Assembly: GCA_963681505.1 (NCBI GenBank)
Contig: OY811974.1
Location: 2,930,511 to 2,994,510 of the forward strand
DNA: 64,000 bases
Origin: Eunapius fragilis
Lineage: Eukaryota > Porifera > Demospongiae > Spongillida > Spongillidae
Reading direction: 5' to 3'
Position numbers and translations under genes: made by a program. The notes beneath the pieces were generated by a model. The model was not told the origin of the DNA. It saw nothing but the letters and a program-made list of their open reading frames with translations, and did no database searches. This document shows positions 1 to 22,769 of the stretch, one piece after another. Position 1 is the first letter of the stretch; every line of letters starts with the position of its first letter.

Positions 1-1
1 C

Positions 2-61
2 AACCTCCATCTAGTGAGGGCCAATGCCACTACCATCCTCACCAGATGCATTTTGAATTAA
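2..61 (+). pseudogene. C-terminal tail of REL-type non-LTR retrotransposon ORF (cut by window edge)
   Basis: The first bases read in frame 2 as the end of an ORF, containing NLHLVRANATTILTRC and a TAA stop. This matches the C-terminal signature LNLxLVRANxRAIL seen in the retrotransposon copies at 47.5-57.7 kb. Only the last 20 or so codons are inside the window. An AT-rich stretch follows, as expected for a 3' UTR and tail. It is on the plus strand, opposite to the EGF gene. Confidence 0.6.
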
Positions 62-330
62 CATTAACTACAGGCTATGTTTACGATTGTACCTATGTAT
101 TGAAATTAATGCTGATTATTATTTCTAGATAATATTCTTTTATTTTTAACAATGAAAAAAGTCATTACAAAAAGAAATTATAAACATACGATACATAAAT
201 AGAGTACACATACTTCAAAATACAGAATACACAAATGGGAATAAATGCACACACAGGATTATAAAGGATTATTATTGACTTTATTATATATTAATACATA
301 TACACATGGATACAATCTTAAATCTTAAGG

Positions 331-455
331 CGTGCCACTCTCACATGCAGGCCCAAGTCAGCTGTACTTAGAGACATCTATGGCAGACTCAACCTCCATC
401 TAGTGAGGGCCAATGCTACTGTCATCCTCACCAGGTGTATTAACAATAACTATAG
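331..455 (+). pseudogene. 5'-truncated 3' end of the same retrotransposon family
   Basis: The frame starting at 331 gives RATLTCRPKSAVLRDIYGRL followed by NLHLVRANATVILTRC and runs to a stop after AATAAC. It nearly repeats the tail at 2-61, about 390 bases downstream in the same orientation. It then runs into an AT-rich tail with TTTATTTATTTG and AATAATAATAATAC (about 505-556). Two consecutive truncated 3' ends resemble the tandem pair at 55.2-55.8 kb. No endonuclease or reverse transcriptase remains. Confidence 0.6.
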
Positions 456-679
456 GCTATGTTTAAGATTGTACCCATGTGTATGTATTGTAAGGATTAT
501 CATTATTTATTTATTTGTTTTTGGTTAAAATAAATAATAAAAATAATAATAATACAAATTCTCAAGCCATCCTATCCCGCTCTCTGTAAAATGTGCATGT
601 TAGATAAAGTGTGCATTATACCGTACGGTAGGTGATAATAATACTGGGAATAACAACAAATAGTGAATACACGTCTAAT

Positions 680-1135
680 CATTATTCAACATAGAAGGTA
701 TACATTGGGAGGCGAGTGCCTCAATCGTTGGCGCGAATCGAGCGGGAAAACGTGCAAGCACTTTGCACAGCATTATCTCCGTAACGGATGAAGTAAAAAT
801 TAACGAACAGGACAAATCGATAAGTACAGGATCCCTCTGCGTATCAAGTGTGAGATTTCTTGCCGTAAAATATGGCCAGTTTGAACCCCAAGGGCTATCG
901 GACGTTGAAACACCTGCACGATTCTAATGTAAGTCCCAAAAATATATTTTACCATGCCGAAATGGTTTAGCATGAAGTAAGAAAAACAGTAAGTCCATAG
1001 CATCTCCCGCTCCAAAGTTATAGTGACTCAAACGTGAATTATCCTTACACACACAACAATTATAGCGATATATCATTTTCTCAGAGTCTGTCCCATAAAT
1101 AATTATACACAAATATGCCTCTAGCAGATGAAACA
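680..1135. repeat. Old interspersed repeat (family also at about 23.0 and 30.6 kb)
   Basis: The block shares scattered but ordered words with 22985-23395 and 30520-30905: GCGGGAAAA followed by CGTGCA, a GTACAGGA(T/C)C segment, CAGTTTGAACCC, ATCGGACGTTG and CCAAAAATATATT. It is diverged and encodes nothing convincing. From 1140 to 1580 no gene or repeat is recognised; the EGF gene's next 3' exon is not apparent there. Confidence 0.45.
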
Positions 1136-1587
1136 TATTAAAACTGTGGCGGAGAGGGCTAGAATGCCAGGCAAACCATCACTCTACTCGTCACATAGGG
1201 CTCCTTGCACAACAAAGCCCGGGTGACAAGTGACATGTTTGTGAGTCCATGATGAGATCTACTTTAGCAAGGAATATGTAGCTTGCAACTTTAATTCAAT
1301 AATAATGAATATTACCATACTGTTGTTTAATAATGAAAATACCTTCACAAATGCATGGATACATGAACATGTACATTATAATTGTTGCCCCATTCTTTGC
1401 CTGCCATTGCTTGTGAATTTTAATGTATGATTTATATATTATTATAAATACCAAACGTAATGAAAAATAGGAAAAATATTGCTGTAATATGATGGTTTGG
1501 AATTGATAGATGACAATCTTCCATTAGCATATTCTTATTTTATCCCGTGTTCAAAACACATTCAAATTGTTATCCATAAGAACTAAC

Positions 1588-4500
1588 CATTGCAAGTACT
1601 GTTGTCTGCATTCAACGCATATCCAACCTGACATGAACATATATAGCTTCCATTAGTGTTAGTACAAATTTGGGAACAGTTTCCGTTTTTGGATGAACAT
1701 TCATTAACATCTGTGGTAACCAAAACATTAATAAACTTCCGATCATTCTCATAATAACAACTAACCGTTACAAGTTCTGCTGTCAGCATTCAATACATAT
1801 CCAAACCGACATGAGCATATGAAGCTTCCATTAGTGTTTGTACAAATTTGGGAACAGTTTCCGTTGTTGGATGAACATTCATTAATATCTGGTAACCAAA
1901 AAGACATTAGATACCTCCGATCATTTACACAAGAACAACTAACCGTTACAAGTTCTGCTGTCTGCATTCAATATGTATCCAATCTGACATGAGCATATGA
2001 AGCTTCCATTAGTGTTTGAACAAATTTGGGAACAGTTTCCGTTGTTGGATGAACATTCATTGACATCTGCGATAACCAAAACATGAATAAACTTCCGATA
2101 AATTTCTCAATTACAACTAACCGTTACAAGTTCTTCTGTCTGCATTCAATATATATCCAATCTGACATGAGCATATGAAGCTTCCATTAGTGTTTGTACA
2201 AATTTGGGAACAGTTTCCGTTGTTGGATGAACATTCATTCACATCTGTGGTTACCAATAGATTAATAAACTTCCGATCAATTTCAAAATAACAACTAACC
2301 GTTACAAGTTCTGCTGTCAGCATTCAATACATATCCAATCTGGCATGAGCATAGGAAGCTTCCATTAGTGTTTGAGCAAATTTGGGAACAGTTTCCGTTG
2401 TTGGATGAACATTCATTCACATCTGTGGTAACCAAAGATTAATAAATTTCCGATCAATTTTTCAATATCAACTAACCGTTACAAGTTCTGCTGCCAGCAT
2501 TCAATACATATCCAATCTGACATACGCACATGAAGCTTCCATTGGTGTTTGTACAAATTTGGGAACAGTTTCCGTTGTTGGATGAACATTCATTCACATC
2601 TGTGGTAACCAACAGATTAATAAACTTCCGATCAATTTTTCAAAAACAACTGACCGTTACAAGTTCTGCTGTCTGAATTCAATACATATCCAATCTGACA
2701 TGAGCATACGAAGCTTCCATTAGTGTTTGTACAAATTTGGGAACAGTTTCCGTTGTTGGATGAACATTCATTAATATCTGTGGTTACCAAAAGATTAATA
2801 AACTTCCGATCAATTTTTCAATAACAACTAACCGTTACAAGTTCTGCTGTCAGCATTCAATACATATCCTATCTGGCATGAGCATAGGAAGCTTCCATTA
2901 GTGTTTGAGCAAACTTGGGAACAGTTTCCGTTGTTGGATGAACATTCATTCACATCTGTGGTTACCAATAGATTAATAAACTTCCGATCAATTTTTCAAT
3001 AACAACTAACCGTTACAAGTTCTGCTGTCAGCATTCAATACATATCCAATCTGGCATGAGCATAGGAAGCTTCCATTAGTGTTTGAGCAAATTTGGGAAC
3101 AGTTTCCGTTGTTGGATGAACATTCATTAACATCTGTGGTAACCAAAAGATTAATAAACTTCCGATCAATATTTTTCAATATCAACTAACCGTTACAAGT
3201 TCTGCCGTCAGCATTCAATACATATCCAATCTGACATAAGCACATGAAGCTTCCATTAGTGTTTGAGCAAATTTGGGAACAGTTTCCATTGTTGGATGAA
3301 CATTCATTAACATCTGTGGTAACCAAAACGTTAAAAAACTTCCGATCAATTTCTCAATAAAAACTAACCGTTACAAGTTCTGCTGTCAGCATTCAATACA
3401 TATCCAATCTGACATGAGCATATGAAGCTTCCATTAGTGTTTGAGCAAATTTGGGAACAGTTTCCGTTGTTGGATGAACATTCATTCACATCTGTGGTAA
3501 CCAACAGATTAATAAACTTCCGATCAATTTTTCAATAACAACTGACCGTTACAAGTTCTGCTGTCTGAATTCAATACATATCCAATCTGACATGAGCATA
3601 CGAAGCTTCCATTAGTGTTTGTACAAATTTGGGAACAGTTTCCGTTGATGGATGAACATTCATTAATATCTGTGGTTACCAAAAGATTAATAAACTTCCG
3701 ATCAATTATTCAATAACAACTAACCGTTACAAGTTCTGCTGTCAGCATTCAATACATATCCAATCTGGCATGAGCATAGGAAGCTTCCATTAGTGTTTGA
3801 GCAAATTTGGGAACAGTTTCCGTTGTAGGATGAACATTCATTCACATCTGTGGTTACCAATAGATTAATAAACTTCCGATCAATTTTTCAATAACAACTA
3901 ACCGTTACAAGTTCTGCTATCAGCATTCAATACATATCCAATCTGGCATGAGCATAGGAAGCTTCCATTAGTGTTTGAGCAAATTTGGGAACAGTTTCCG
4001 TTGTTGGATGAACATTCATTAACATCTGTGGTAACCAAAAGATTAATAAACTTCTGATCAATATTTTTCAATATCAACTAACCGTTACAAGTTCTGCCGT
4101 CAGCATTCAATACATATCCAATCTGACATAAGCACATGAAGCTTCCATTGGTGTTTGTACAAATTTGGGAACAGTTTCCGTTGTTGGATGAACATTCATT
4201 AACATCTGTGGTAACCAAAACGTTAATAAACTTCCGATCAATTTCTCAATAAAAACTAACCGTTACACGTTCTGCTGTCTGCATTCAATACATATCCAAT
4301 CTGACATGAGCATATGAAGCTTCCATTAGTGTTTGAGCAAATTTGGGAACAGTTTCCGTTGTTGGATGAACATTCATTAACATCTGTGGTAACCAAAACG
4401 TTAAAAAAATTCCGATCAATTTCTCAATAAAAACTAACCGTTACAAGTTCTGCTGTCAGCATTCAATACATATCCAATCTGACATGAGCATATGAAGCTT

Positions 4501-7500
4501 TCATTAGTGTTTGAGCAAATTTGGGAACAGTTTCCGTTGTTGGATGAACATTCATTAACATCTGTGGTAACCAAAAGATTAATAAACTTCCGATCAATAT
4601 TTTTCAATATCAACTAACCGTTACAAGTTCTGCCGTCAGCATTCAATACATATCCAATCTGACATAAGCACATGAAGCTTCCATTGGTGTTTGTACAAAT
4701 TTGGGAACAGTTTCCGTTGTTGGATGAACATTCATTAACATCTGTGGTAACCAAAACGTTAATAAACTTCCGATCAATTTCTCAATAAAAACTAACCGTT
4801 ACAAGTTCTGCCGTCTGCATTCAATATTAATCCAATCTGACATGAGCATATGAAGCTTCCATTAGTGTTTGTACAAATTTGGGAACAGTTTCCGTTGTTG
4901 GATGAACATTCATTAACATCTGTGGTAACCAAAACGTTAATAAACTTCCGATGATTTTTTCTATAAAAACTAACTGTTACAAGTTCTGCCGTCTGCATTC
5001 AATATATATCCAATCTGACATGAGCATATGAAGCTTCCATTAGTGTTAGTACAAATTTGGGAACAGTTTCCGTTGTTGGATGAGCATGCATTAATATCTG
5101 TGGTTACCAAAAGATTAATAAACTTCCGATCAATTCTTCAATAACAACTAACCGTTACAAGTTCTGCTGTCAGCATTCAACACATATCCAATCTGACATG
5201 AGCATATGAAGCTTCCATTAGTGTTTGTACAAATTTGGGAACAGTTTCCGTTGTTGGATGAACATTCATTAACATCTGTGGTAACCAAAACGTTAATAAA
5301 CTTCCGATGAATTTTTCTATAAAAACTAACCGTTACAAGTTCTGCTGTCAGCATTCAATACATATCCAATCTGACATGAGCATACGAAGCTTCCATGAGT
5401 GTTTGTACAAATTTGGGAACAGTTTCCGTTGTTGGATGAACATTCATTAACATCTGTGGTAACCAAAACGTTAATAAACTTCCAATCAATTTCTCAATAA
5501 AAACTAACCGTTACAAGTTCTGCCGTCTGCATTCAATATATATCCAATCTGACATGAGCATATGAAGCTTCCGTTAGTGTTAGTACAAATTTGGGAACAG
5601 TTTCCGTTGTTGGATGAGCATGCAATAAGATCTGTGGTTACCAAAAGATTAATAAACTTCCGATCAATTCTTCAAAAACAACTAACCGTTACAAGTTCTG
5701 CTGTCAGCATTCAACAAATATCCAATCTGACATGAGCATATGAAGCTTCCATTAGTGTTTGTACAAATTTGGGAACAGTTTCCGTTGTTGGATGAACATT
5801 CATTAACATCTGTGGTAACCAAAACGTTAATAAACTTCCTATGAATTTTTCTATAAAAACTAACCGTTACAAGTTCTGCCGTCTGCATTCAATATATATC
5901 CAATCTGACATGAGCATATGAAGCTTCCATTAGTGTTAGTACAAATTTGGGAACAGTTTCCATTGTTGGATGAGCATGCATTAAGATCTGTGGTTACCAA
6001 ACGATTAATAAACTTCCGATCAATTTTTCAATAACAACTAACCGTTACAAGTTCTGCCGTCTGCATTCAATATATATCCAACCTGACATGAGCATATGAA
6101 GCTTCCATTAGTGTTAGTACAAATTTGGGAACAGTTTCCGTTGTTGGATGAACATTCATTAATATCTGTAGTAACTAAAAAATTAATAAACGTCCGATCA
6201 AATTTTTAATAACAACTAACCGTTACAAGTTCTGCTGTCAGCATTCAATACATATCCAATCTGACATGAGCATATGAAGCTTCCATTAGTGTTTGTACAA
6301 ATTTGGGAACAGTTTCCGTTGTTGGATGAACATTCATTAACATCTGTGGTAACCAAAACGTTAATAAACTTCCGATCAATTTCTCAATAAAAACTAACCG
6401 TTACAAGTTCTGATGTCAGCATTCAACACATATCCAATTTGACATGAGCATATGAAGCTTCCATTAGTGTTTGTACAAATTTGGGAACAGTTTCCGTTGT
6501 TGGATGAACATTCATTAACATCTGTGGTAACCAAAACTTTAATAAACTTCCGATCAATTTCTCAATAAAAACTAACCGTTACAAGTTCTGCCGTCTGCAT
6601 TCAATATTAATCCAATCTGACATGAGCATATGAAGCTTCCATTAGTGTTAGTACAAATTTGGGAACAGTTTCCGTTGTTGGATGAGCATGCATTAAGATC
6701 TGTGGTTACCAAAAGATTAATAAACTTCCGATGAATTCTTCAATAACAACTAACCGTTACAAGTTCTGCTGTCAGCATTCAACACATATCCAATCTGACA
6801 TGAGCATATGAAGCTTCCATTAGTGTTTGTACAAGTTTGGGAACAGTTTCCGTTGTTGGATGAACATTCATTAACATCTGTGGTAACCAAAACGTTAATA
6901 AACTTCCGATGATTTTTTCTATAAAAACTAACCGTTACAAGTTCTGCCGTCTGCATTCAATATATATCCAATCTGACATGAGCATATGAAGCTTCCATTA
7001 GTGTTAGCACAAATTTGGGAACAGTTTCCGTTGTTGGATGAGCATGCATTAACATCTGTGGTTACCAAAAGATTAATAAACTTCCGATCAATTTTTCTAT
7101 AACAACTAACCATTACAAGTTCTGCTGTCAGCATTCAATACATATCCAATCTGACATGAGCATATGAAGCTTTCATTAGTGTTTGAACAAATTTGGGAAC
7201 AGTTTCCGTTATTGGATGAACATTCATTAACATCTGTGGTAACCAAAACGTTAATAAACTACCGATGAATTTCTCTATAAAAACTAACCGTTACAAGTTC
7301 TGCCGTCTGCATTCAATATATATCCAATCTGACATGAGCATATGAAGCTTCCATTAGTGTTAGTACAAATTTGGGAACAGTTTCCATTGTTGGATGAGCA
7401 TGCATTAACATCTGTGGTTACGAAAAGATTAATAAACTTCCGATCAATTTTTCAATAACAACTAACCGTTACAAGTTCTACTGTCAGCATTCAATACATA

Positions 7501-8303
7501 TCCAATCTGACATGAGCATATGAAGCTTCCATTAGTGTTTGTACAAATTTGGGAACAGTTTCCGTTGTTGGATGAACATTCATTAACATCTGTGGTAACC
7601 AAAACGTTAATAAACTTCCGATGAATTTCTCTATAAAAACTAACCGCTACAAGTTCTGCCGTCTGCATTCAATATATATCCAATCTGACATGAGCATATG
7701 AAGCTTCCATTAGTGTTAGTACAAATTTGGGAACAGTTTCCGTTGTTGGATGAGCATGCATTAACATCTGTGGTTACCAAAAGATTAATAAACTTCCGAT
7801 CAATTTTTCAATAACAACTAACCGTTACAAGTTCTGCTGTCAGCATTCAATACATATCCAATCTGACATGAGCATATGAAGCTTCCATTAGTGTTTGAAC
7901 AAATTTGGGAACAGTTTCCGTTATTGGATGAACATTCATTAACATCTGTGGGGTAACCAAAACGTTAATAAACTTCCGATGAATTTCTCTATAAAAACTA
8001 ACCGTTACAAGTTCTGCCGTCTGCATTCAATATATATCCAATCTGACATGAGCATATGAAGCTTCCATTAGTGTTAGCACAAATTTGGGAACAGTTTCCG
8101 TTGTTGGATGTGCATGCATTAACATCTGTGGTAACCAAAATGTTAATAAACTTCCGATGAATTTCTCAATAAAAACTAACCGTTGCAAGTTCTGCCGTCT
8201 GCATTCAATATATATCCAATCTGACATGAGCATATGAAGCTTCCATTAGTGTTTGTACAAATTAGGGAACAGTTTCCGTTGTTGGATGAACATTCATTAA
8301 TAT
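1588..8303 (-). repeat. Type A EGF exon array: 38 units of 178 bases
   Basis: Exon ends fall at 1588, 1766 and so on up to 8181, an exact 178-base step (123-base exon plus 55-base intron). Each exon encodes a domain beginning [12 protein letters not shown], continuing [15 protein letters not shown] and ending [13 protein letters not shown]. Introns begin GTTAGT and end GGTTACCACAG and are about as conserved as the exons, which indicates recent duplication or homogenisation of whole units. N-C-S and N-G-S sequons suggest possible glycosylation. Variants seen include a shortened intron acceptor side at 1889-1890 and Gln-to-Leu in the exon ending at 8181; none of these breaks the frame. Confidence 0.9.
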
Positions 8304-11300
8304 CTGTGGTAACCAAAAAGGAATAATGATATAGATCGAACAAACGCCTACATGGAGGCGAAAAGTGCTGTTTTAGCCTACGTGTATAGGTGTTCTATTG
8401 CAACGTATGGTCCTCGCATTCAATGCCGTATGAAACTTTTAATAAGAATAAAGTAACACTTAAGCATAGGGCTTCGTCTTTAATTCGCCTAGGAGCTCAT
8501 TCAGCCATCGTCTCATTTGATACACGATCGAGATGGTGCGTACAAAAATTGCCTACGTTGGGAATGGTGTGTATCTGGCAAAGAGTTAAAATTATATCTG
8601 CCTATAAAACGAAGAATGTTTCTAGTACGCAAATCAGAACAACTCCAGCTAAATGAGGGGCGTCACCAACAGAGCGTTCAAAGCACTAGCAGCACGCTGG
8701 CGATGTTTTCTGTCACCAGCTTGCAAGTAGTCCTCTTTATTATATTGGTACTTATTATTTCAAGCGTTGGCTGTTTGTACATCGTTTGGAATAAAGGATT
8801 TGCAACGCCTACATTGATATGTAGGCTAAGGCGCCTACACGCGTAGGTGACGATCTATCATTAAGTTACCTCCGATTACTTTCCCAATAACAACTAACCG
8901 TTACAAGTTCTGCTGTCTGCATTCAATACATATCCAATCTGACATGAGCATACAAAGCTTCCATTAGTGTTTGTACAAATTTGGGAACAGTTTCCATTGT
9001 TGGATGAACATTCATTGATGTCTGTGTTGACCATAAAGAAAATAATTACCTCCGACCACTTGTAAGGCAGGGATGTAATGCAAGACAATGATTTAATAGC
9101 GCACCGTCACATGTTGATTTGTTCAATATGTACCCAGTGGTACATGAGCAAGAGAAATTTCCAACTGTGTTGTTGCAGATTTGAGAACAGCCTCCATTGC
9201 TGGTCAAGCACTCATTAATGTCTGCAAAAGGCAGTTATAAATATTAATGAAAGATAGCAATATAATAGCACACCATCGCATGTTGATTTGTCGGAGTTCA
9301 ATATGTACCCTGTGGTACATAAGCAAGAGAAATTTCCAACTGTGTTGTTGCAGATCTGAGAACAGCCTCCATTGCTGGTCAAGCACTCATCAATATCTAT
9401 GTAAGGAAATGATAAAACTTAATGCAAGAAGCAATATATAGCATACCGCCGCATGTTGATTTATCAGAACTCAATATGTACCCAGTTGTGCATGAGCAAC
9501 TAAAATTTCCGACTGTGTTGTTGCAGATATGAGAACAGCCTCCATTGTTGGTCAAGCACTCATCAATATCTATGAAAGGATGTGATAAAACTCAATGCAA
9601 AAAGCAATTTCATAGCTTACCATCACATGTTGATTGGTCAGAATTCAATACATAGCCAGTTCTACATGAACAAGAGAAATTTCCTACTGTGTTGTTGCAG
9701 ATTTGAGAACAGCCTCCATTGCTGGTCAAGCACTCATCAATATCTATGAAAGGATGTGATAAAACTCAATGCAAAAAGCAATTTAATAGCTTACCATCAC
9801 ATGTTGATTTGTCAGAATTCAATACATAGCCAGTTCTACATGAGCAAGAGAAATTTCCGACTCTGTTGTTGCAGATTTGAGAACAGCCTCCATTGCTGGT
9901 CAAGCACTCATCAATATCTATGAAAGGATGTGATTAAACGCAATGCAAGAAGTAATTTAATAGCTTACCATCACATGTTGATTTGTCAGAATTCAATACA
10001 TAGCCAGTTCTACATGAGCAAGAGAAATTTCCGACTCTGTTGTTGCAGATTTGAGAACAGCCTCCATTGCTGGTCAAGCACTCATCAATATCTATGAAAG
10101 GATGTGATTAAACGCAATGCAAGAAGTAATTTAATAGCTTACCATCACATGTTGATTTGTCAGAATTCAATACATAGCCAGTTCTACATGAACAAGAGAA
10201 ATTTCCTACTGTGTTGTTGCAGATTTGAGAACAGCCTCCAATGCTGGTCAAGCACTCATCAATATCTATGAAAGGATGTGATAAAACTCAATGCAAAAAG
10301 CAATTTCATAGCTTACCATCACATGTTGATTGGTCAGAATTCAATACATAGCCAGTTCTACATGAACAACAGAAATTTCCGACTGCGTTGTTGCAGATTT
10401 GAGAACAGCCTCCATTGCTGGTCAAGCACTCATCAATATCTATGAAAGGATGTGATAAAACTCAATGCAAAAAGCAATTTCATAGCTTACCATCACATGT
10501 TGATTTGTCAGAATTCAATACATAGCCAGTTCTACATGAGCAAGTGAAATTTCCGACTACGTTGTTGCAGATTTGAGAACAGCCTCCATTGCTGGTCAAG
10601 CACTCATCAATATCTATGAAAGGATGTGATAAAACTCAATGCAAAAAGCAATTTCATAGCTTACCATCACATGTTGATTGGTCAGAATTCAATATATAGC
10701 CAGTTCTACATGAGCAAGTGAAATTTCCGACTGCGTTGTTGCAGATTTGAGAACAGCCTCCATTGCTGGTCATGCACTCATCAATATCTATGAAAGGATG
10801 TGATAAAACTCAATGCAAGAAGTAATTTAATAGCTTACCATCACACGTTGATTGGTCAGAATTCAATACATAGCCAGTTCTACATGAGCAAGAGAAATTT
10901 CCAACTGCGTTGTTGCAGATTTGAGAACAGCCTCCATTGCTGGTCAAGCACTCATCAATATCTATGAAAGGATGTGATAAAACTCAATGCAAGATACAAT
11001 TTAATAGCTTACCATCACACGTTGATTGGTCAGAATTCAATATATAGCCAGTTCTACATGAGCAAGAGTAATTTCCGACCGCGTTGTTGCAGATTTGAGA
11101 ACAGCCTCCATTGCTGGTCAAGCACTCATCAATATCTATGAAAGGGTGTGATAAAACTCAATGCAAGAAGTAATTTAATAGCTTACCATCACATGTTTGT
11201 TTGTCAGAATTCACGACATAGCCAGTTCTACATGAACAAGAGAAATTTCCGACTGCGTTGTTGCAGATTTGAGAACAGCCTCCATTGCTGGTCAAGCACT

Positions 11301-14300
11301 CATCAATATCTATGAAAGGACGTGATAAAACTCAATGCAAGATGTAATTTAATAGCTTACCATCACATGTTTGTTTGTCAGAATTCACGACATAACCAGT
11401 TCTACATGAACAAGAGAAATTTCCGACTGCGTTGTTGCAGATTTGAGAACAGCCTCCATTGCTGGTCAAGCATTCATCAATATCTATGAAAGGGTGTGAT
11501 AAAACTCAATGCAAGAAGCAATTTAATAGCTTACCATCACACTGTGATTGGTCAGAATTCAATATATAGCCAGTTCTACATGAGCAAGAGAAATTTCCGA
11601 CTGCGTTGTCGCAGATTTGAGAACAGCCTCCATTGTTGGTCAAGCACTCATCAATATCTATGAAAAGATGTGATAAAACTCAATGCAAGAAGTAATTTAA
11701 TAGCTTACCATCACATGTTTGTTTGTCAGAATTCAATACATAGCCAGTTCTACATGAACAAGAGAAATATCCGACTGCGTTGTTGCAGATTTGAGAACAG
11801 CCTCCGTTGCTGGTCAAGCACTCATCAATATCTATGAAAGGGTGTGATAAAACTCAATGCAAGAAGCAATTTAATAGCTTACCATCACACGTTGATTGGT
11901 CAGAATTCAATATATAGCCAGTTCTACATGAGCAAGAGAAATTTCCGACTGCATTGTTGCAGACTTGAGAACAGCCTCCATTGCTGGTCAAGCACTCATC
12001 AATATCTATGAAAGGGTGTGATAAAACTCAATGCAAGATACAATTTAATAGCTTACCATCACACGTTGATTGGTCAGAATTCAATACATAGCCAGTTCTA
12101 CATGAGCAAGAGAAATTTCCAACTGCGTTGTTGCAGATTTGAGAACAGCCTCCATTGCTGGTCAAGCACTCATCAATATCTATGAAAGGATGTGATAAAA
12201 CTCAATGCAAGATACAATTTAATAGCTTACCATCACACGTTGATTGGTCAGAATTCAATATATAGCCAGTTCTACATGAGCAAGAGTAATTTCCGACCGC
12301 GTTGTTGCAGATTTGAGAACAGCCTCCATTGCTGGTCAAGCACTCATCAATATCTATGAAAGGGTGTGATAAAACTCAATGCAAGAAGTAATTTAATAGC
12401 TTACCATCACATGTTTGTTTGTCAGAATTCAATACATAGCCAGTTCTACATGAACAAGAGAAATTTCCGACTGCGTTGTTGCAGATTTGAGAACAGCCTC
12501 CATTGCTGGTCAAGCACTCATCAATATCTATGAAAGGATGTGATAAAACTCAATGCAAGATACAATTGAATAGCTTACCATCACACGTTGATTGGTCAGA
12601 ATTCAATATATAGCCAGTTCTACATGAGCAAGAGTAATTTCCGACCGCGTTGTTGCAGATTTGAGAACAGCCTCCATTGCTGGTCAAGCACTCATCAATA
12701 TCTATGAAAGGGTGTGATAAAACTCAATGCAAGAAGTAATTTAATAGCTTACCATCACATGTTTGTTTGTCAGAATTCACGACATAGCCAGTTCTACATG
12801 AACAAGAGAAATTTCCGACTGCGTTGTTGCAGATTTGAGAACAGCCTCCATTGCTGGTCAAGCACTCATCAATATCTATGAAAGGACGTGATAAAACTCA
12901 ATGCAAGAAGTAATTTAATAGCTTACCATCACATGTTTGTTTGTCAGAATTCACGACATAACCAGTTCTACATGAACAAGAGAAATTTCCGACTGCGTTG
13001 TTGCAGATTTGAGAACAGCCTCCATTGCTGGTCAAGCATTCATCAATATCTATGAAAGGGTGTGATAAAACTCAATGCAAGAAGCAATTTAATAGCTTAC
13101 CATCACACCGTGATTGGTCAGAATTCAATATATAGCCAGTTCTACATGAGCAAGAGAAATTTCCGACTGCGTTGTCGCAGATTTGAGAACAGCCTCCATT
13201 GTTGGTCAAGCACTCATCAATATCTATGAAAAGATGTGATAAAACTCAATGCAAGAAGTAATTTAATAGCTTACCATCACATGTTTGTTTGTCAGAATTC
13301 AATACATAGCCAGTTCTACATGAACAAGAGAAATTTCCGACTGCGTTGTTGCAGATTTGAGAACAGCCTCCGTTGCTGGTCAAGCACTCATCAATATCTA
13401 TGAAAGGGTGTGATAAAACTCAATGCAAGAAGCAATTTAATAGCTTACCATCACACGTTGATTGGTCAGAATTCAATATATAGCCAGTTCTACATGAGCA
13501 AGAGAAATTTCCGACTGCATTGTTGCAGACTTGAGAACAGCCTCCATTGCTGGTCAAGCACTCATCAATATCTATGAAAGGATGTGATAAAACTCAATGC
13601 AAGAAGCAGTTTAATAGCTTACCATCACATGTTGATTTGTCAGAATTCAATACATAGCCAGTTCTACATGAGCAAGAGAAATTTCCAACTGCGTTGTTGC
13701 AGATTTGAGAACAGCCTCCATTGCTGGTCAAGCACTCATCAATATCTATGAAAGGACGTGATAAAACTCAATGCAAGAAGTAATTTAATAGCTTACCATC
13801 ACATGTTTGTTTGTCAGAATTCACGACATAGCCAGTTCTACATGAACAAGAGAAATTTCCGACTGCGTTGTTGCAGATTTGAGAACAGCCTCCATTGCTG
13901 GTCAAGCACTCATCAATATCTATGAAAGGATGTGATAAAACTCAATGCAAGAAGTAATTTAATAGCTTACCATCACATGTTTGTTTGTCAGAATTCACGA
14001 CATAGCCAGTTCTACATGAACAAGAGAAATTTCCGACTGCGTTGTTGCAGATTTGAGAACAGCCTCCGTTGCTGGTCAAGCACTCATCAATATCTATGAA
14101 AGGGTGTGATAAAACTCAATGCAAGAAGCAATTTAATAGCTTACCATCACACGTTGATTGGTCAGAATTCAATATATAGCCAGTTCTACATGAGCAAGAG
14201 AAATTTCCGACTGCGTTATTACAGATTTGAGAACAGCCTCCATTGCTGGTCAAGCACTCATCAATATCTATGAAAGGATGTGATAAAACTCAATGCAAGA

Positions 14301-17300
14301 AGCAGTTTAATAGCTTACCATCACATGTTGATTTGTCAGAATTCAATACATAGCCAGTTCTACATGAGCAAGAGAAATTTCCAACTGCGTTGTTGCAGAT
14401 TTGAGAACAGCCTCCATTGCTGGTCAAGCACTCATCAATATCTATGAAAGGATGTGATAAAACTCAATGCAAGAAGCAGTTTAATAGCTTACCATCACAT
14501 GTTGATTTGTCAGAATTCAATACATAGCCAGTTCTACATGAGCAAGAGAAATTTCCAACTGCGTTGTTGCCGATTTGAGAACAGCCTCCATTGCTGGTCA
14601 AGCACTCATCAATATCTATGAAAGGATGTGATAAAACTCAATGCTAGAAGCAGTTTAATAGCTTACCATCACATGTTGATTTGTCAGAATTCAATACATA
14701 GCCAGTTCTACATGAGCAAGAGAAATTTCCAACTGCGTTGTTGCAGACTTGAGAACAGCCTCCATTGCTGGTCAAGCACTCATCAATATCTATGAAACGA
14801 CGTGATAAAACTCAATGCAAGAAGTAATTTAATAGCTTACCATCACATGTTTGTTTGTCAGAATTCAATACATAGCCAGTTCTACATGAGCAAGAGAAAT
14901 TTCCGACTGCATTGTTGCAGATTTGAGAACAGCCTCCATTGCTGGTCAAGCACTCATCAATATCTATGAAAGGACGTGATAAAACTCAATGCAAGAAGCA
15001 ATTTAATAGCATACCATCACACCGTGATTGGTCAGAATTCAATATATAGCCAGTTCTACATGAGCAAGAGAAATTTCCGACTGCGTTGTCGCAGATTTGA
15101 GAACAGCCTCCATAGCTGGTCAAGCACTCATCAATATCTATGAAAGGGTGTGATAAAACTCAATGCAAGATACAATTTAATAGCTTACCATCACACGTTG
15201 ATTGGTCAGAAGTCAATATATAGCCAGTTCTACATGAGCAAGAGTAATTTCCGACCGCGTTGTTGCAGATTTGAGAACAGCCTCCATTGCTGGTCAAGCA
15301 CTCATCAATATCTATGAAAGGACGTGATAAAACTCAATGCAAGAAGTAATTTAATAGCTTACCATCACATGTTTGTTTGTCAGAATTCACGACATAGCCA
15401 GTTCTACATGAACAAGAGAAATTTCCGACTGTGTTGTTGCAGATTTGAGAACAGCCTCCATTGCTGGTCAAGCATTCATCAATATCTATGAAAGGGTGTG
15501 ATAAAACTCAATGCAAGAAGCAATCTAATAGCTTACCATCACACCGTGATTGGTCAGAATTCAATATATAGCCAGTTCTACATGAGCAAGAGAAATTTCC
15601 GACTGCGTTGTCGCAGATTTGAGAACAGCCTCCATTGTTGGTCAAGCACTCATCAATATCTATGAAAGGATGTGATAAAACTCAATGCAAGAAGTAAATT
15701 AATAGCTTACCATCACATGTTGATTTGTCAGAATTCAATACATAGCCAGTTCTACATGAGCAAGAGAAATTTCCAACTGCGTTGTTGCAGATTTGAGAAC
15801 AGCCTCCATTGCTGGTCAAGCACTCATCAATATCTATGAAAGGGTGTGATAAAACTCAATGCAAGAAGCAGTTTAATAGCTTACCATCACATGTTGATTT
15901 GTCAGAATTCAATACATAGCCAGTTCTACATGAGCAAGAGAAATTTCCGATAGCGTTTTTACAGATTTGAGAACAGCCTCCATTGCTGGTCATGCACTCA
16001 TCAATATCTATGAAAGGGTGCGATAAAACTCAATGCAAGAAGCAGTTTAATAGCTTACCATCACATGTTGATTTGTCAGAATTCAATACATAGCCAGTTC
16101 TACATGAGCAAGAGAAATTTCCGACTGCGTTATTACAGATTTGAGAACAGCCTCCATTGCTGGTCAAGCACTCATCAATATCTATGAAAGGATGTGATAA
16201 AACTCAATGCAAGAAGCAATTTAATAGCTTACCATCACATATTTGTTTGTCAGAATTCAATACATAGCCAGTTCTACATGAACAAGAGAAATTTCCGACT
16301 GCGTTGTTGCAGATTTGAGAACAGCCTCCATTGCTGGTCAAGCACTCATCAATATCTATGAAAGGATGTGATAAAACTCAATGCAAAAAGCAATTTAATA
16401 GCTTACCATCACATGTTGATTGGTCAGAATTCAATATATAGCCAGTTCTACATGAGCAAGAGAAATTTCCAACTGCGTTGTTGCAGATTTGAGAACAGCC
16501 TCCATTGCTGGTCAAGCACTCATCAATATCTATGAAAGGATGTGATAAAACTCAATGCAAAAAGCAATTTAATAGCTTACCATCACATGTTTGTTTGTCA
16601 GAATTCAATACATAGCCAGTTCTACATGAACAAGAGAAATTTCCGACTGCGTTGTTGCAGATTTGAGAACAGCCTCCGTTGCTGGTCAAGCACTCATCAA
16701 TATCTATGAAAGGGTTGATAAAACTCAATGTAAGAAGCAATTTAATAGCTTACCATCACACGTTGATTGGTCAGAATTCAATACATAGCCAGTTCTACAT
16801 GAGCAAGAGTAATTTCCGACCGCGTTGTTGCAGACTTGAGAACAGCCTCCATTGCTGGTCAAGCACTCATCAATATCTATGAAAGGATGTGATAAAACTC
16901 AATGCAAAAAGCAATTGAATAGCTTACCATCACATGTTGATTTGTCAGAATTCAATACATAGCCAGTTCTACATGAGCAAGTGAAATTTCCGACTGCGTT
17001 GTTGCAGATTTGAGAACAGCCTCCATTGCTGGTCATGCACTCATCAATATCTATGAAAGGGTGTGATAAAACTCAATGCAAGAAGCAATTTAATAGCTTA
17101 CCATCACACCGTGATTGGTCAGAATTCAATATATAGCCAGTTCTACATGAGCAAGAGAAATTTCCAACTGTGTTGTTGCAGATTTGAGAACAGCCTCCAT
17201 TGCTGGTCATGCACTCATCAATATCTATGAAAGGGTGTGATAAAACTCAATGTAAGAAGCAATTGAATAGCTTACCATCACACGTTAATTGGTCAGAATT

Positions 17301-19095
17301 CAATATATAGCCAGTTCTACATGAGCAAGAGAAATTTCCAACTGCGTTGTTGCAGATTTGAGAACAGCCTCCTTTGCTGGTCATGCACTCATCAATATCT
17401 ATGAAAGGGTGTGATAAAACTCAATGTAAGAAGCAATTGAATAGCTTACCATCACACGTTGATTGGTCAGAATTCAATATATAGCCAGTTCTACATGAGC
17501 AAGAGAAATTTCCGACTGCGTTGTTGCAGATTTGAGAACAGCCTCCTTTGCTGGTCATGCACTCATCAATATCTATGAAAGGGTGTGATAAAACTCAATG
17601 TAAGAAGCAATTGAATAGCTTACCATCACACGTTGATTGGTCAGAATTCAATATATAGCCAGTTCTACATGAGCAAGAGAAATTTCCGACTGCGTTGTTG
17701 CAGATTTGAGAACAGCCTCCATTGCTGGTCATGCACTCATCAATATCTATGAAAGGGTATGATAAAACTCAATGTAAGAAGCAATTTAATAGCTTACCAT
17801 CACACGTTGATTGGTCAGAATTCAATATATAGCCAGTTCTACATGAGCAAGAGAAATTTCCAACTGCGTTGTTGCAGATTTGAGAACAGCCTCCATTGCT
17901 GGTCATGCACTCATCAATATCTATGAAAGGGTGTGATAAAACTCAATGTAAGAAGCAATTGAATAGCTTACCATCACACGTTGATTGGTCAGAATTCAAT
18001 ATATAGCCAGTTCTACATGAGCAAGAGAAATTTCCAACTGCGTTGTTGCAGATTTGAGAACAGCCTCCTTTGCTGGTCATGCACTCATCAATATCTATGA
18101 AAGGGTGTGATAAAACTCAATGTAAGAAGCAATTGAATAGCTTACCATCACACGTTGATTGGTCAGAATTCAATATATAGCCAGTTCTACATGAGCAAGA
18201 GAAATTTCCGACTGCGTTGTTGCAGATTTGAGAACAGCCTCCATTGCTGGTCATGCACTCATCAATATCTATGAAAGGGTGTGATAAAACTCAATGTAAG
18301 AAGCAATTTAATAGCTTACCATCACACGTTGATTGGTCAGAATTCAATATATAGCCAGTTCTACATGAGCAAGAGAAATTTCCAACTGCGTTGTTGCAGA
18401 TTTGAGAACAGCCTCCATTGCTGGTCAAGCACTCATCAATATCTGAATTGAATATCAATGGATGCTATGACATGAGTATGAATTTCTGATATACAAAACT
18501 GACCTATGCAAATACTTGTTGTACTGTTAAATGTGTAACCAGACCTGCAGGAACAACTGATGTTTTCAGATATGTTGTTGCAGATGGCATGGCAATCTTT
18601 ATACTTGGCCTCGCAGTGATTGATACTACCTGAAAGTGTATATCAACATTGCTAGTAATTTGTTGTATGTTGTTTAGGAGGTTTTGCCTGATTATGGCAT
18701 CATTGCAAATTTTCTGATTGCTATTTAATATCTGTTCTGTTTGCTCCATGTGCTACTCGAAAAATGCTGCATGAATATTCCCAGCTATCTATTTTCTTGC
18801 CTTCTACGAATCTGCCATGCATTTCAGCCTACTGGATGCATAAACCCAGGATACTCTACCCATCAATCACAACCCATTCACACCAAATTCGTTGTTAGTT
18901 ATACGCCATAAATGTTGGATCAGGGACATTGCCGTGCTATAATAAGTGGTCAGGTCATTGTTATTAGGTGGGAGGTTTGGTGTGTGTTACCTTCTGTTGT
19001 GTTGTTGATGAAGGAGCCAGTGTCACAACAACAGGAGCAATTTAGACCATCGTTGCTGTTACAGATCTGTGTGCATGCTTGACCTTCTGTTATGC
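1588..19095 (-). CDS. Giant multi-exon EGF-repeat protein gene (partial; about 95 EGF exons)
   Basis: This is the visible body of a gene read from high to low coordinates. Two diverged EGF exons lead into 54 type B and 39 type A exons, roughly 3,800 residues of EGF repeat. Each typical exon is 123 bases, starts after an AG acceptor (TTTCATAG in B, ACCACAG in A) and ends at GTAAGC or GTTAGT, with the codon split after base 1 on both sides (phase 1-1). Domains have six cysteines, a D-x-D/N-E calcium motif before Cys1 and the C-x-N-x4-F-x-C Asp/Asn hydroxylation pattern, so they are calcium-binding EGF domains of the fibrillin/Notch kind. Such proteins are normally secreted or cell-surface rods. 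No signal peptide, transmembrane segment or terminal exon was found, so the gene extends beyond what is visible. I did not check every exon for stops; those I sampled across the arrays are open. Confidence 0.85.
5042..8183 (-). repeat. Higher-order dimers in type A array (calcium-site Glu alternately lost)
   Basis: Exons starting near 5091, 5625, 5981, 6693, 7049, 7405, 7761 and 8117 read DVNAC or DLNAC instead of DVNEC. The last five are spaced exactly 356 bases apart, so normal and Glu-to-Ala domains alternate. The N-E pair just before Cys1 belongs to the calcium site of cbEGF domains, so the altered domains should bind calcium poorly or not at all. The dimer spacing shows that two-exon blocks were copied together. 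Confidence 0.8.
8326..8861. mobile_element. 536-base miniature inverted-repeat element in an EGF intron, TA target duplication
   Basis: The intron between type A exons 39 and 38 is 595 bases instead of 55. The extra sequence starts ATGATATAGATCG and ends with the near-complement CGATCTATCAT, and both ends are flanked by TA. Subterminal GCCTAC/GTAGGC words occur in both orientations near the ends. The TA duplication fits a Tc1/mariner-like nonautonomous element. Short open frames inside (8390-8656, 8517-8846) have no recognisable domain and are treated as chance. The intron splice sites remain intact. Confidence 0.6.
8899..9021 (-). CDS. Type A EGF exon 39 (first type A exon in gene order)
   Basis: A 123-base phase 1-1 exon reading [12 protein letters not shown], then [15 protein letters not shown] and [13 protein letters not shown]. 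The acceptor side reads GGTCAACACAG and the donor GTTAGT. It is separated from the main type A array by the inserted element at 8326-8861 and adjoins the type B array on its other side, so it marks the family boundary. Confidence 0.85.
9022..9104 (-). other. Hybrid 83-base intron at the type B/type A boundary
   Basis: Read on the minus strand, the 5' part (GTGCGCTATTAAAT, then CTTGCATT) resembles type B introns, while the 3' part (GGTCGGAGGTAATTA, then TTATGGTCAACACAG) resembles type A introns. The junction of the two exon families therefore lies inside an intron, as expected for exon shuffling or intron-mediated recombination. Confidence 0.6.
9105..9221 (-). CDS. Last type B EGF exon, two codons shorter
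   Basis: This exon is 117 bases rather than 123. The segment before Cys6 reads [11 protein letters not shown] where other copies have [13 protein letters not shown], an in-frame loss of Ser-Asp. Its acceptor is TTTTGCAG and its donor GTGCGC, both more diverged than in the main array, as expected for an array edge that escapes homogenisation. Confidence 0.8.
9274..18442 (-). repeat. Type B EGF exon array: 53 units of about 174 bases
   Basis: Exon starts run from 18442 down to 9569 and 9396 at 174-base steps, with one-base slips near the low end. Each unit is a 123-base exon plus a 51-base intron beginning GTAAGCTATTAAATTG and ending CCTTTCATAG. The domain begins [12 protein letters not shown], continues [15 protein letters not shown] and ends [13 protein letters not shown]. 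The calcium motif D-I-D-E and the C-x-N-x4-F-x-C hydroxylation pattern are retained, and N-F-S is a sequon. With the 117-base edge exon this makes 54 type B exons. Intron sequence is as uniform as exon sequence. Confidence 0.9.
10800..15660 (-). repeat. Higher-order repeats of nine and six units inside type B array
   Basis: Shared private variants mark copied blocks. The variant TCACGACATA starts at 11211, 11385, 12777, 12951, 13821, 13995 and 15387, giving offsets of 1566 (9 x 174) and 1044 (6 x 174) bases. The variant GTTGTCGCAG lies near 11605 and 13171, again 1566 apart. Neighbouring variants (an ACCGTGATTGG-like unit and GCATTGTTGCAGACTTGAG) follow in the same order, so multi-exon blocks were duplicated together. 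Confidence 0.75.
18504..18629 (-). CDS. Diverged EGF exon upstream of type B array
   Basis: A 126-base phase 1-1 exon with acceptor CACTTTCAG and donor GTCAGT. It reads [12 protein letters not shown], then [15 protein letters not shown], then [15 protein letters not shown]: six cysteines in EGF spacing. The calcium motif is weak (S-I-N-H), so calcium binding is doubtful. It joins in phase to the exon at 18991-19095 upstream and to the first type B exon (18442) downstream. N-I-S and N-S-T sequons are present. Confidence 0.75.
   Translation of the reverse strand, partial: VVSITARPSIKIAMPSATTYLKTSVVPAGLVTHLTVQQVFA
18991..19095 (-). CDS. Most 5' EGF-like exon seen (shortened domain)
   Basis: A 105-base phase 1-1 exon between acceptor CTCACCCCAG and donor GTAACA. 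It reads [16 protein letters not shown], then [19 protein letters not shown]. The C-x3-C and C-x-C pattern is EGF-like but Cys1 and Cys6 are not in the usual places, and an extra CC is present, so this is a degenerate or partial domain. No upstream signal-peptide exon was found up to 19.7 kb. Confidence 0.6.
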
Positions 19096-19432
19096 CTGGG
19101 GTGAGAGGTGGTATAAATGTAATACCAGTTAAAATACCCTCCACAGCTAAGCAATAATAAGATACTTGTTTCCGATGCAAAACGTAAAATTGAAATTGAG
19201 TGTATGTTTAATGGGTACACTTAGTAGTAGTAGTTTTCTTCAGACACAATTCAAACAATCTAATCATTCATGATAGTAGAACCAATAAAACACTCTGTGT
19301 GAGAAGGTGGCGTATTGGATCAAAAGGCAATGGCGGTGTATCAAGGAGCAACCAAGTGTCTAATAATAACTAGCCCAAATTTTCGCACACATACAACATA
19401 ATGTCCTTCAAAGGGGTGAATGTAGTAATGAA

Positions 19433-19664
19433 ACAAGTAAAACAAAACCTTCTCTATGAGAAAGTTGGTGGGATATAGGATTTGAAGGCAATGGAGGCGT
19501 GAGGGTCTGTAAAATGTCATAGTCCTATATTTAGCACGTTTGTAGCATATACTATGTTCGTATGCTAGGACTATTAGACCCTTGCTTCCTTGCTTTTTAC
19601 ACTACCATTGCCTTCAAATCCTTTATGCCACCAACTTTCTCATAGAGGTTTTTTATTTACTTTT
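19433..19664. mobile_element. Foldback miniature element, copy 1
   Basis: The left end starts ACAAGTAAAACAAAACC, then TTCTCTATGAGAAAG and TTGGTGGGATATAGGA. The right end is its reverse complement (CCACCAACTTTCTCAT, then ATTTAC). The arms are about 70 bases with a short centre containing CCTATATTTAGCA. A second, better preserved copy is at 24343-24631. A related fragment (GAGAAGGTGGCG, then AAAAGGCAATGG) lies at 19301-19336. No target duplication was identified. Confidence 0.7.
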
Positions 19665-19810
19665 TTCATTCATTTTTTCTTTGTTCGTGCACATTGATTC
19701 GTAATGTTCAGCCACCAGTGTCATATTGTAAACCAAGCTTTGTAAGAGTAGGTAGCTACATTTACATACCTTTGAATAACTTTATCGGTTTACTCTTTAG
19801 ATGGCCTCGT

Positions 19811-19939
19811 TTAGTTTTGCATGGTACGCTTAGCCTTCCCGTACCGCACTCTATTCGCCAAACGAGCAGATTCAGGACTCTTCCAATAACGTTGCCTTTT
19901 AGCGGACCATTTTTTCTCGGGTCCCCTTGATGCCGCCAT
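19811..19939 (-). pseudogene. Basic Lys/Arg-rich repeat ORF fragment (possible Helitron ORF start)
   Basis: A 42-codon ORF starts MAASRGPEKKWSAKRQRYWK, continues SPESARLANRVRYGKAKR and then stops. The RYWKSPESARLA-type motif resembles the repeated R-Y-x3-P-E segments found in long basic N-terminal regions of Helitron-like replication/helicase proteins of invertebrates; that link is from memory of the pattern only. The plus-strand fragment at 23909-24250 has the same style. No Rep or helicase domain is present. Confidence 0.3.
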
Positions 19940-20196
19940 TTTTACTTTAAGATATCTAAAATGTTACCTAATTATGCGTCTTACATATACCGTATAGTGG
20001 ATTGTTTACCAAAATTTAACATCGGCTATTTTTTATGAAAGCGGCTCTTCCAGTCTATTCTGAAGCTATTGGTGAAATTTTCATTGTTTAAAAGTGTTAC
20101 TATCCCGACTTATGCGTTGCTAAGAAGAAGGAGGAGGAGACTATGTTCCGGGACTATGTACGAGGGCGGGCAGTACCCTTTTGTTCTCTACAACCG

Positions 20197-20709
20197 CAGG
20201 GCTGGCGGAAGCTCTTTAGGATTGGTCCGGCGAAGAGGTGGAAACTTACAGCAAAGGGGTATGGGGGAGCGCTATAAGCTTCCCCACCGCTCCGCCCCAG
20301 CCGCTTCGCACTTTTTAAGTCAAAAAACATAGCATTTGTATGCATCACTTTATATATGCTAGCAATCATTAAATGATTCAACCGTTGCTGGTTCATAGTG
20401 GCTCGCAGATAGAACTTCACTCGCCTCAAGGGCCGCTCACTCACTGCAGGCATTACTAAAATGAGATGGCCAACATGCACGGCAAAGCTGGCCAAAAAGC
20501 ATCCTTTCTCCAATTGTGAGGGACCTTAAATGCGCTCTTTCATCTGAATTAGCAACCTTAAACCTTTCTCAAATACACCGTTTGCATGGAAAGGCAAATT
20601 GCATGGGAGGATACATTTGCAGCCATTATAATTGTACATGTACACTGAATTAATTAACTAGAAAATGGGCGTGGTTGGGTAAAAATACGAACCTGTTCCG
20701 CCAGCCCTG
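20197..20709. mobile_element. 513-base nonautonomous hAT-like element with 5-base target duplication
   Basis: The left terminus CAGGGCTGGCGGAA and right terminus TTCCGCCAGCCCTG are perfect 14-base inverted repeats. They are flanked directly by AACCG on both sides (20192-20196 and 20710-20714). CAGGG-type ends are typical of hAT elements, which usually make 8-base duplications, though some groups make 5 or 6. No transposase is encoded. The open frames here (20069-20332, 20154-20513) cross the element boundary and are rejected as genes. Confidence 0.65.
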
Positions 20710-20857
20710 AACCGCGCGGTTCTGTAACATAAAAGAAAGACGAAACTGCTCATTTTTGACTTCTAGTTCGATTGCTATCACAAGCTAAACGATCCGATCG
20801 AGCGATTAAACCCCTATGGCAGTGCGTCATCATTAGTGACTGGACGTACTGATGACA

Positions 20858-20931
20858 TACTCTGCATACCACCGGATAATAGCTAATAATAATAATAGAA
20901 TACTAGCGGTTATCCGGAGGTATGCAGAGTA
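20858..20931. repeat. 74-base foldback repeat
   Basis: TACTCTGCATACC followed by ACCGGATAA is mirrored by the reverse complement TTATCCGGAGGTATGC then AGAGTA. The arms of about 22 bases flank an AATAATAATAATAG loop. It may be a tiny miniature element or a solo terminal pair. Confidence 0.55.
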
Positions 20932-22215
20932 CCCATGTACGATTTTAAATTGGAATACCCCATTGCAATTGCATGGCTTACGCTTTTCGTTTCCATCATT
21001 TGCAGATCATCTCTGTATGAAGGATGATTCAAAGCCTCATTATCTTTCTACACGAGTGTGTTAGAATTGGGCATTTATAAGTCCATGCATGTTATTACTT
21101 GTGTCACCCGTATCCATGTTGATTCTATTTTACTCTAGCTAACCCGTGGTGAAAATTCATCTGCACAAGGTATTTGCGATGATTCGGCGCCTGTTTCATA
21201 TTTCATGCATGTAAAGTGATGCCCAAACAATCTCCGCGGGCGCAGATCGGGCGAAATAATTCATATTTGAGTCGATCAGTATACTGTTCTATATTTTAAT
21301 TAATGCTGTCACTCTTTTGGTTTCATGTTTACATTCATGAGGGCCGTCCGCGTTCCTCTATAATCCGCTCATTATAATTATCTACAAAGCATTTTAGTGT
21401 TTTGCTGCCGAATTCATTTGCTGCCTAAATTGCAGTCAACCGGTTATAATAGCGATTTCACAGACTACAAGTGAATGTACTGTTGCTAACACTGTGCCTG
21501 CTGCTGGACATATATACTAAGTCATATAGAGTGATATGTTTTGGTATTTATTGACAGACAAGATCAATCATGAACTGAACGAATGCAAATATTTTGGTTA
21601 TGTTAGTCGCGATATCCTTCGGCATGATGCATAATCTGATGTCTAAATACATAGTAACAAAGGTCATGTATGTTTAGGTTTTATTTACAAATCATAAACG
21701 CGTACTTAAGACGTGTACGTGTAAAATCTCAGGAAAAAAATCCCTGTGGGGACTGTCTATGCGGCTCATGCGACTGTGCATGAGCGTTCTATGTAATATG
21801 CGTACTCGCGCTTAAATACATGCGGTACATACACAAGCGAATGGGGGCGTGGAGACCCTGCATGCACATTATTCTACCACCTTCACTTACAGAATAGTCG
21901 CGATAGTCCCAGCGCCAGTAGCAGCACCACATGCGCTTGCATTGCCGGTTGTTCCCTCCTACGTTTACTGGAGCGTTTAGGAACAGATCTTTTATATAGA
22001 CATGCGTGTGTCAAATTCGGTTGAATTCCTGCTAATCGCGGTGCAAGGATTCGTTGTTGAGTAAACAGCGCGGTAATTAACACGCGCGTGCAACTTGAAC
22101 GGTTTGAAGCATTCTTTGTGCGTTAACGGGGTGACACCGGCATTCACAGACTAAGCCCGCAACAAATAGCTAGGAATCGACTAAAATGCCGCGCATATAT
22201 TTTCGTCCAGTTAAC
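20932..22215. other. No gene recognised
   Basis: Moderately AT-rich unique sequence with only short chance frames. No splice-bounded coding segment, RNA gene or clear repeat was recognised. Confidence 0.5.
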
Positions 22216-22643: not shown

Positions 22644-22769
22644 TTTACAAACTGTATCAGGACGAATTTCCCAACAGAGTATGTACCAGATATGATATAA
22701 CCATGAATATGAACATATCATACCTGGTACATGCTCTGTTGGGAAATTCGTCCTGATATAGGTTGTAAA
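22644..22769. mobile_element. 126-base foldback element
   Basis: Two arms of about 55 bases are reverse complements with few mismatches. The left begins TTTACAAACTGTATCAGGA and contains TTTCCCAACAGAG. The right ends with TCCTGATATAGGTTGTAAA. The loop is about 16 bases. This is a typical solo foldback or miniature inverted-repeat structure, noncoding. Confidence 0.7.

Follow-up and report, generated by a model that had tools for sequence, protein, structure and literature searches.

Genes with homogenized exon-intron repeats are already known. The kringle IV-2 (KIV-2) coding repeat of LPA has a unit of 5.6 kb with two exons and is variable in copy number (PMC6314250). The exon and intron repeat units of the flagelliform and MaSp2 spidroins are reported to evolve in concert (PMC9779670), and a title in the reference list of the same paper describes homogenized repeats in tenascin-X. 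The SmPoMuc mucins of Schistosoma contain concerted exon-intron units of approximately 1 kb around a 27-nt exon (PMC2576457). Among the coding repeats with homogenized introns that we found in the literature, unit length runs from 1 to 5.6 kb in SmPoMuc and LPA, and the spidroin repeats are small and of low complexity.

The array described here lies on chromosome 4 of the freshwater sponge Eunapius fragilis, in a window of 64,000 nt. Its repeated unit packs a folded, disulphide-bonded domain and its own splice sites into 174-178 nt, 93 times. As in the LPA coding VNTR, an in-frame unit of exon and intron is multiplied inside a gene, but the LPA unit spans 5.6 kb with two exons and is known to vary, whereas the sponge unit has a single exon in 174-178 nt. 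Spidroins, tenascin-X and SmPoMuc differ from the sponge array in unit size, domain type and host. The array resembles a coding VNTR in that it is composed of tandem in-frame exon-intron units whose homogeneity is block-specific. Literature searches on EGF exon arrays and on sponge EGF polymorphism returned no report of the array among the matches listed. The array differs from these cases in how compact its unit is, in how many copies there are and in forming the predicted stalk of a sponge protein of MUC4-like type. We assign a probability of about 75% to the overall reading that the locus encodes a MUC4-like membrane protein with an EGF-rod stalk, whose exon-intron units undergo unequal crossing-over under purifying selection. 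The locus offers a clean case in which to test satellite-like turnover when selection acts on the protein, and to ask whether an EGF rod can replace the mucin stalk on a MUC4-type surface protein in an early-branching animal.

Organization of the EGF exon array

The array occupies positions 1588-18442 on the minus strand, which agrees to the base with the span proposed in a sequence-only reading of the window. The approximately 93 EGF exons of that reading proved to be 93, of which 92 have six cysteines and one has lost a cysteine. A search for the six-cysteine pattern also lists 93 exons, 92 of them inside the array and one the divergent exon at 18504. The proposed periods of 178 and 174 bases were both recovered by TRF (37.8 copies with 91% matches and 53.6 copies with 94% matches, respectively) and correspond to two blocks. 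The block with the 174-nt period (9105-18442, minus strand) contains 54 cbEGF exons, and the one with the 178-nt period (1588-9021, minus strand) contains 39, 38 of them at 1588-8303 and one at 8899-9021. The exon length of 123 bases holds for 92 of the 93 exons and fails for one exon of the 174 block (9105-9221), which measures 117 nt. A second atypical exon of this block (14493-14615, minus strand) has a cysteine changed to glycine (TGC to GGC) while its frame is open. All array exon lengths are multiples of three, intron lengths vary, and throughout the EGF part of the gene all exon junctions are in phase 1, as expected from the phase 1-1 junctions originally described. Since the exons are symmetric, each gain or loss of a unit is in-frame. 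None of the 93 exons contains an in-frame stop, and all of them fit a single spliceable gene model made of frame-keeping duplication units. Two array units scanned against Pfam matched EGF_CA with E-values of 2.8e-9 and 6.7e-8.

The introns follow the initial description less closely. The range of 51-55 bases holds for 84 of the 92 array introns (51 nt in 50 of them and 55 nt in 32), but eight fall outside it, with lengths of 50 nt (two), 57 nt (four), 83 nt and 595 nt. Similarly, introns are as uniform as exons in the 174 block, where adjacent units share 0.947 identity in exons and 0.952 in introns, but not in the 178 block, where the corresponding values are 0.936 and 0.868 (same-length pairs only in both blocks). 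Nor are short introns a special trait, as they are ordinary both for the gene, in which 14 of the 18 modeled introns 3' of the array are shorter than 90 nt, and for EGF exons elsewhere in the genome, where 12 further loci have intron medians of 51 to 62 nt.

The 595-nt intron (8304-8898) contains an inserted dispersed repeat that matches elsewhere in the genome. This repeat is approximately 560 nt long and MITE-like in size and spread, with 39 further copies scored at 78-85% identity on many chromosomes (from 234 candidates).

A predicted MUC4-like membrane protein with the array as its stalk

By joining the array to the exons on both sides of it, we obtained a model of 114 exons (C4:2923386-2952452, minus strand) with 15,381 nt of spliced sequence, 5,126 amino acids, no internal stop and GT-AG boundaries at all 113 introns. 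Splice sites were picked by hand from minus-strand frames and neighboring sequence, with exon 1 as the weakest assignment. The array is the middle, or stalk, of this larger gene, which is predicted to encode a membrane-anchored MUC4-like protein. The sequence-only reading had the position and exon count of the array right but did not see either end of the gene, namely the N-terminus at 18504-21942 and the C-terminus beyond the window.

On the N-terminal side, the putative exon 1 (21891-21942, minus strand) would provide the ATG and a signal peptide (MQAHVVLLLALGLSRLF), recognized as a hydrophobic start, followed by a GTAAGTG donor in phase 1. Splice sites, phase and hydrophobicity suggest that it is joined to the rest across a 2.8-kb intron. 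A TATA-like sequence match (TATATAAAAG; 21989-21998, minus strand) starts 56 nt before the ATG. Exon 2 (18991-19095, minus strand) is a degenerate, cysteine-rich EGF-like exon (CSCCC) with no Pfam match, and exon 3 (18504-18629, minus strand) is a divergent EGF exon of 126 nt whose match to EGF_3 falls short of the curated cut-off (E 1.5e-5). On the opposite side, positions 1-1587 (minus strand) are part of a 2,836-nt intron downstream of the array, and the gene continues beyond the window to C4:2923386 with seven more EGF exons and then 11 exons that encode NIDO, VWD and the remaining C-terminal parts. The resulting order is signal peptide, degenerate EGF-like exon, approximately 101 EGF modules (93 of them in the array), NIDO, an AMOP-like region, VWD with a GDPH motif, C8-3_MUC4, EGFs, one transmembrane helix and a 57-residue tail.

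The C-terminal 937 amino acids match the Pfam profiles of NIDO (E 2.6e-27), VWD (1.5e-14), C8-3_MUC4 (1.1e-9) and EGF_CA (4.5e-10). The GDPH motif lies inside VWD at residue 4564, and the 19-mer with the highest hydropathy, IVIACVVTEILLATIILLV, is the predicted transmembrane helix. The region between NIDO and VWD has no match to Pfam AMOP; an AMOP profile search of the genome was also without a match, and the control of that search was equally silent. The NIDO-to-VWD stretch is nevertheless collinear with Mucin-4 of Geotrypetes, in an alignment that extends in all over 733 columns with 26% identity.

By domain order, the predicted protein is of the MUC4-like or 'mucin-like' type. It shares with MUC4 and with the invertebrate 'mucin-like proteins' the succession of NIDO, VWD with GDPH, C8-3_MUC4, EGFs and transmembrane helix, as well as a giant repeated N-terminal stalk. 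The stalk of MUC4, however, is a Ser/Thr/Pro mucin repeat, whereas the sponge stalk is composed of cbEGF exons, and the sponge region lacks the AMOP match. No proline occurs in the 92 array units counted (the unit at 14493 was left out) or in the consensus of either block, and for this absence of a mucin repeat we do not call the protein a mucin.

Both blocks are under purifying selection

Selection acts on the units of both blocks. The pairwise dN/dS, whose values are non-independent, is 0.36 in the 174 block (1,378 pairs of 53 units, leaving out the 117-nt one) and 0.30 in the 178 block (741 pairs of 39 units). We also scored departures from the block consensus, taking every distinct change a single time, with transitions weighted 2 and without the 117-nt unit. 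Distinct synonymous changes are 46 against 27.7 expected, and only one distinct substitution alters a cysteine against 14.6 expected without selection. Together with the open frames and the exon lengths in multiples of three, this speaks against a chance pattern. Both blocks are therefore under purifying selection. The introns diverge somewhat less than synonymous sites (0.087 in intron interiors and 0.12 for pS in the 174 block, 0.128 and 0.146 in the 178 block), so that their likeness chiefly reflects recent copying.

The same count flagged 13 and 2 'stop' changes, one distinct in each block. We read these as two-change codons scored base by base, given that the spliced frame has no stop.

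These figures bear on whether the array could be a dead, unexpressed satellite of EGF exons. Satellite-like homogeneity and the unit with a lost cysteine are what such a satellite would display. The excess of synonymous changes, the near absence of cysteine changes, the 15,381 nt without a stop and the intact flanking NIDO-VWD-TM exons all speak for a functional gene and make the idea hardly credible.

Turnover of the exon-intron unit

In the midpoint-rooted topology of 338 EGF exons from ten genome loci, the 174 block (54 of 54 units) and the 178 block (39 of 39) are each monophyletic, and all 93 array units have their nearest neighbor within their own block. The synonymous difference between the two blocks is 0.69, and they are thus separate amplifications. 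Exact 120-mers recur most often at shifts of three and eight units in the 178 block, and of nine, four, one and seven units in the 174 block, which indicates that both blocks hold multi-unit duplications. A single higher-order period was rejected, since multiple shifts recur with none dominant and lag identities are flat.

Units at the edges of an array are expected to resemble the consensus less when the array evolves by unequal crossing-over. The mean likeness to the consensus of the three edge units at each end, as compared to the rest, is 0.936 and 0.965 in one block and 0.943 and 0.962 in the other (plain averages), and in the 174 block the divergence is confined to the 3' end. Among the inner units of the 178 block, identity drops with distance (Mantel r -0.192, 3 of 999 permutations). 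In the 174 block, the inner units show no such drop (Mantel r 0.007, 557 of 999 permutations), and gene conversion or rapid turnover on a large scale explains them as well as local crossing-over does. We propose that unequal crossing-over, whether or not accompanied by gene conversion, operates on the 174/178-nt unit of exon and intron. The length of the stalk would drift, while selection would hold the units to a working EGF fold, calcium site and set of splice signals. A protein length that differs between alleles, as put forward in the sequence-only reading, is plausible. Crossing-over is likely the driver of this turnover, possibly with gene conversion alongside.

A different use of symmetric exons would be combinatorial splicing, in which the array is a reservoir and cells include variable subsets of it to produce many isoforms in place of a single full-length rod. 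All array exons are in phase 1-1, so any subset is in-frame, and SmPoMuc transcripts carry more repeats than the genes do, a difference ascribed to trans-splicing (PMC2576457). The units of the sponge array, however, are nearly the same (31 distinct peptides in 53 units of the 174 block and 31 in the 39 of the 178 block), so that skipping would alter length more than identity. Donors and acceptors also group into a few common types, none of them obviously weak. For these reasons we regard combinatorial splicing as unlikely.

Because units are so similar, their number could also have been inflated or collapsed during assembly. Libraries of ultra-low input ('ULI') are made with amplification. 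The published reads of E. fragilis derive from a 'ULI' library and total 184.53 Gb over 18.74 million (PMC12616128), which by division gives a mean read of approximately 9.8 kb, shorter than the 16.9-kb array. On the other hand, distinct exon-intron units number 48 of 53 in the 174 block and 39 of 39 in the 178 block, so that accurate long reads should be placeable. The longest exact repeat in the array is 390 nt, and the lack of any exact repeat of at least 400 nt argues against an artifact, as do the absence of N in the 104 kb examined and the published QV of 60.4 (PMC12616128). An assembly artifact is therefore very improbable.

A calcium-binding EGF rod

Calcium-binding EGF domains are recognizable by the consensus of their calcium site and of beta-hydroxylation. 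The beta-hydroxylation consensus is present in 92 of the 93 array units, and the glutamate of the calcium site, before the first cysteine (C1), in 85. C6-to-next-C1 spacing is five residues in 93 of 98 neighboring modules, and the EGF units have sequence matches to solved EGF domains of LRP2, thrombomodulin and fibrillin. The eight units without the glutamate have alanine in its place and all lie in the 178 block (4975-8125). Several of the alanine units, at 8003, 7645, 7289, 6933 and 6577, alternate with normal ones. There are 184 N-x-S/T sequons, or 138 when the poorly used N-C-S/T form is excluded.

The calcium-site and hydroxylation consensus and the five-residue C6-C1 spacing are shared with fibrillin and other tandem cbEGF proteins. 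The sponge protein differs from fibrillin in its near-identical units, its membrane anchor and its other C-terminal domains. No fibrillin-type TB (8-Cys) domain is found among the Pfam matches of the C-terminal 937 amino acids, and the stalk, whose composition was read from the exons with a Pfam scan of two array units, consists of EGF exons only. The product would be a membrane glycoprotein of type I, with an EGF rod that calcium stiffens and that is N-glycosylated. With the per-domain length of fibrillin, the rod would measure approximately 0.25-0.3 micrometre and hold the N-terminus far from the cell. MUC4 is putatively cut at its GDPH site into two subunits (PMC8660890). If cleavage occurs as proposed for MUC4, the rod would be held non-covalently on a membrane stub. 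An extracellular rod had been suggested from the outset, and cbEGF-type domains would indeed form one; the adhesion or recognition role attached to it would be a possible one. The protein would likely act as a cell-surface barrier, spacer or adhesion molecule, selected for length and glycan load over exact sequence.

We compared the window protein with other EGF proteins, collected through searches with length windows and word filters (best 120 rows), of which 213 out of 230 had at least six EGF modules. A twin with 90% identity exists for 88 of 100 modules of the window protein. The most twinned comparison protein by number has such twins for 14 of 24 units, while by fraction the highest are two Branchiostoma proteins (nine of nine modules, adjacent identity 0.96), which have equally similar modules but in short runs.

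Other EGF arrays and relatives of the gene

EGF exon runs were read at 12 other loci of the genome, two of which form an inverted pair, while the run on C20 has fewer than five matches. Mean identity is 0.90 on C3 (24 matches, in two inverted copies), 0.87 on C2 (37 units), 0.79 in the 29 units at 2.50 Mb on C4 and 0.61-0.82 at the remaining loci. Among the arrays read, none exceeds the window array in number of units, the stretches at other loci being of 10 or 20 kb such that arrays there may extend further. Its identity as a whole (0.78) is lower than on C3 and C2. When its blocks are taken singly, they are the most uniform (0.95 and 0.94, compared to 0.92 on C3 and 0.89 on C2). The closest match to the 178-block units outside the gene is a 133-nt stretch at C20:3299410-3299541, with at most 90% identity.

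The inverted copies on C3 (C3:9658267-9668000 and C3:9752269-9762000) extend over at least 9.7 kb each, are 99.93% identical and lie approximately 84 kb apart. They form a palindrome, a recent duplication or an assembly duplication.

Four other arrays (C2, C3, C4 at 2.50 Mb and C17) were tested for monophyly, and none of them forms a clean clade. The smallest clade that encloses all units of an array contains 50 exons for the 37 of C2, 119 for the 23 of C3, 181 for the 29 of C4 and 338 for the 42 of C17. Nearest neighbors fall within the same array for 36 of 37, 23 of 23, 28 of 29 and 32 of 42 units, respectively. A search of the genome with the NIDO exon returned at least 17 places, query included; on C4, three of the other places share 71-86% identity with it. 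The 2.50-Mb array of C4 ends approximately 0.9 kb before a NIDO exon, and that of C2 is followed on its own strand, after approximately 4.4 kb, by a NIDO exon (the intervening sequence was read in part).

Within the length windows searched, the best homolog is Em0010g757a of Ephydatia muelleri, likewise a freshwater sponge, which aligns to 91% of a 1,060-residue query with 65% identity. It starts with five 41-residue repeats (residues 1-205; 83-95% alike) that, by eye, appear to be an array of near-identical EGF exons translated in the wrong frame. If the repeats are so read, E. muelleri likely has an array of another unit. Em0010g757a differs from the E. fragilis gene in unit sequence, and its Pfam scan shows no above-threshold VWD. 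As this model is apparently out of frame inside the array, gene prediction may mis-handle such loci.

A broader possibility is that freshwater sponges have a fast-evolving family of MUC4-like receptors, whose stalks would vary in length between alleles and be regrown, satellite-like, in different genes and species, each time starting with a single founder EGF exon or a small number of them. Selection would then act on length and glycan load, and hence on barrier height or cell-cell spacing, perhaps also on self-recognition, and not on a fixed list of domains. Since the arrays at other loci are not clean clades, we consider this extension doubtful. The arrays of several genes could furthermore be length-polymorphic labels for self/non-self recognition in the graft or gemmule compatibility of sponges. 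The genome does hold several EGF arrays, at least two of them adjoining NIDO exons, and block-specific turnover would yield new lengths quickly. Purifying selection and homogeneity, however, favor sameness within a gene, and literature searches on sponge allorecognition with EGF and repeats gave nothing relevant in the titles and abstract beginnings of the matches listed. We consider such a recognition role improbable.

Other features of the window

An Rfam scan at the gathering threshold and a tRNA scan of the window gave no matches. Two minisatellites, at 41422-41650 (10 copies) and 44610-45550 (41.5 copies), share a similar 23-nt unit, GGGAGGCTAGCATAGGGAAGGTG and a slightly changed rotation of it. 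Between 49647 and 55303 there are minus-strand open frames, partly repeated, which are perhaps pieces of a retroelement; one of them is weakly reverse-transcriptase-like (PF00078, E 0.025, under the cut-off). An inverted repeat at 22644-22769 has 55-nt arms with 93% complementarity, separated by a 16-nt spacer.
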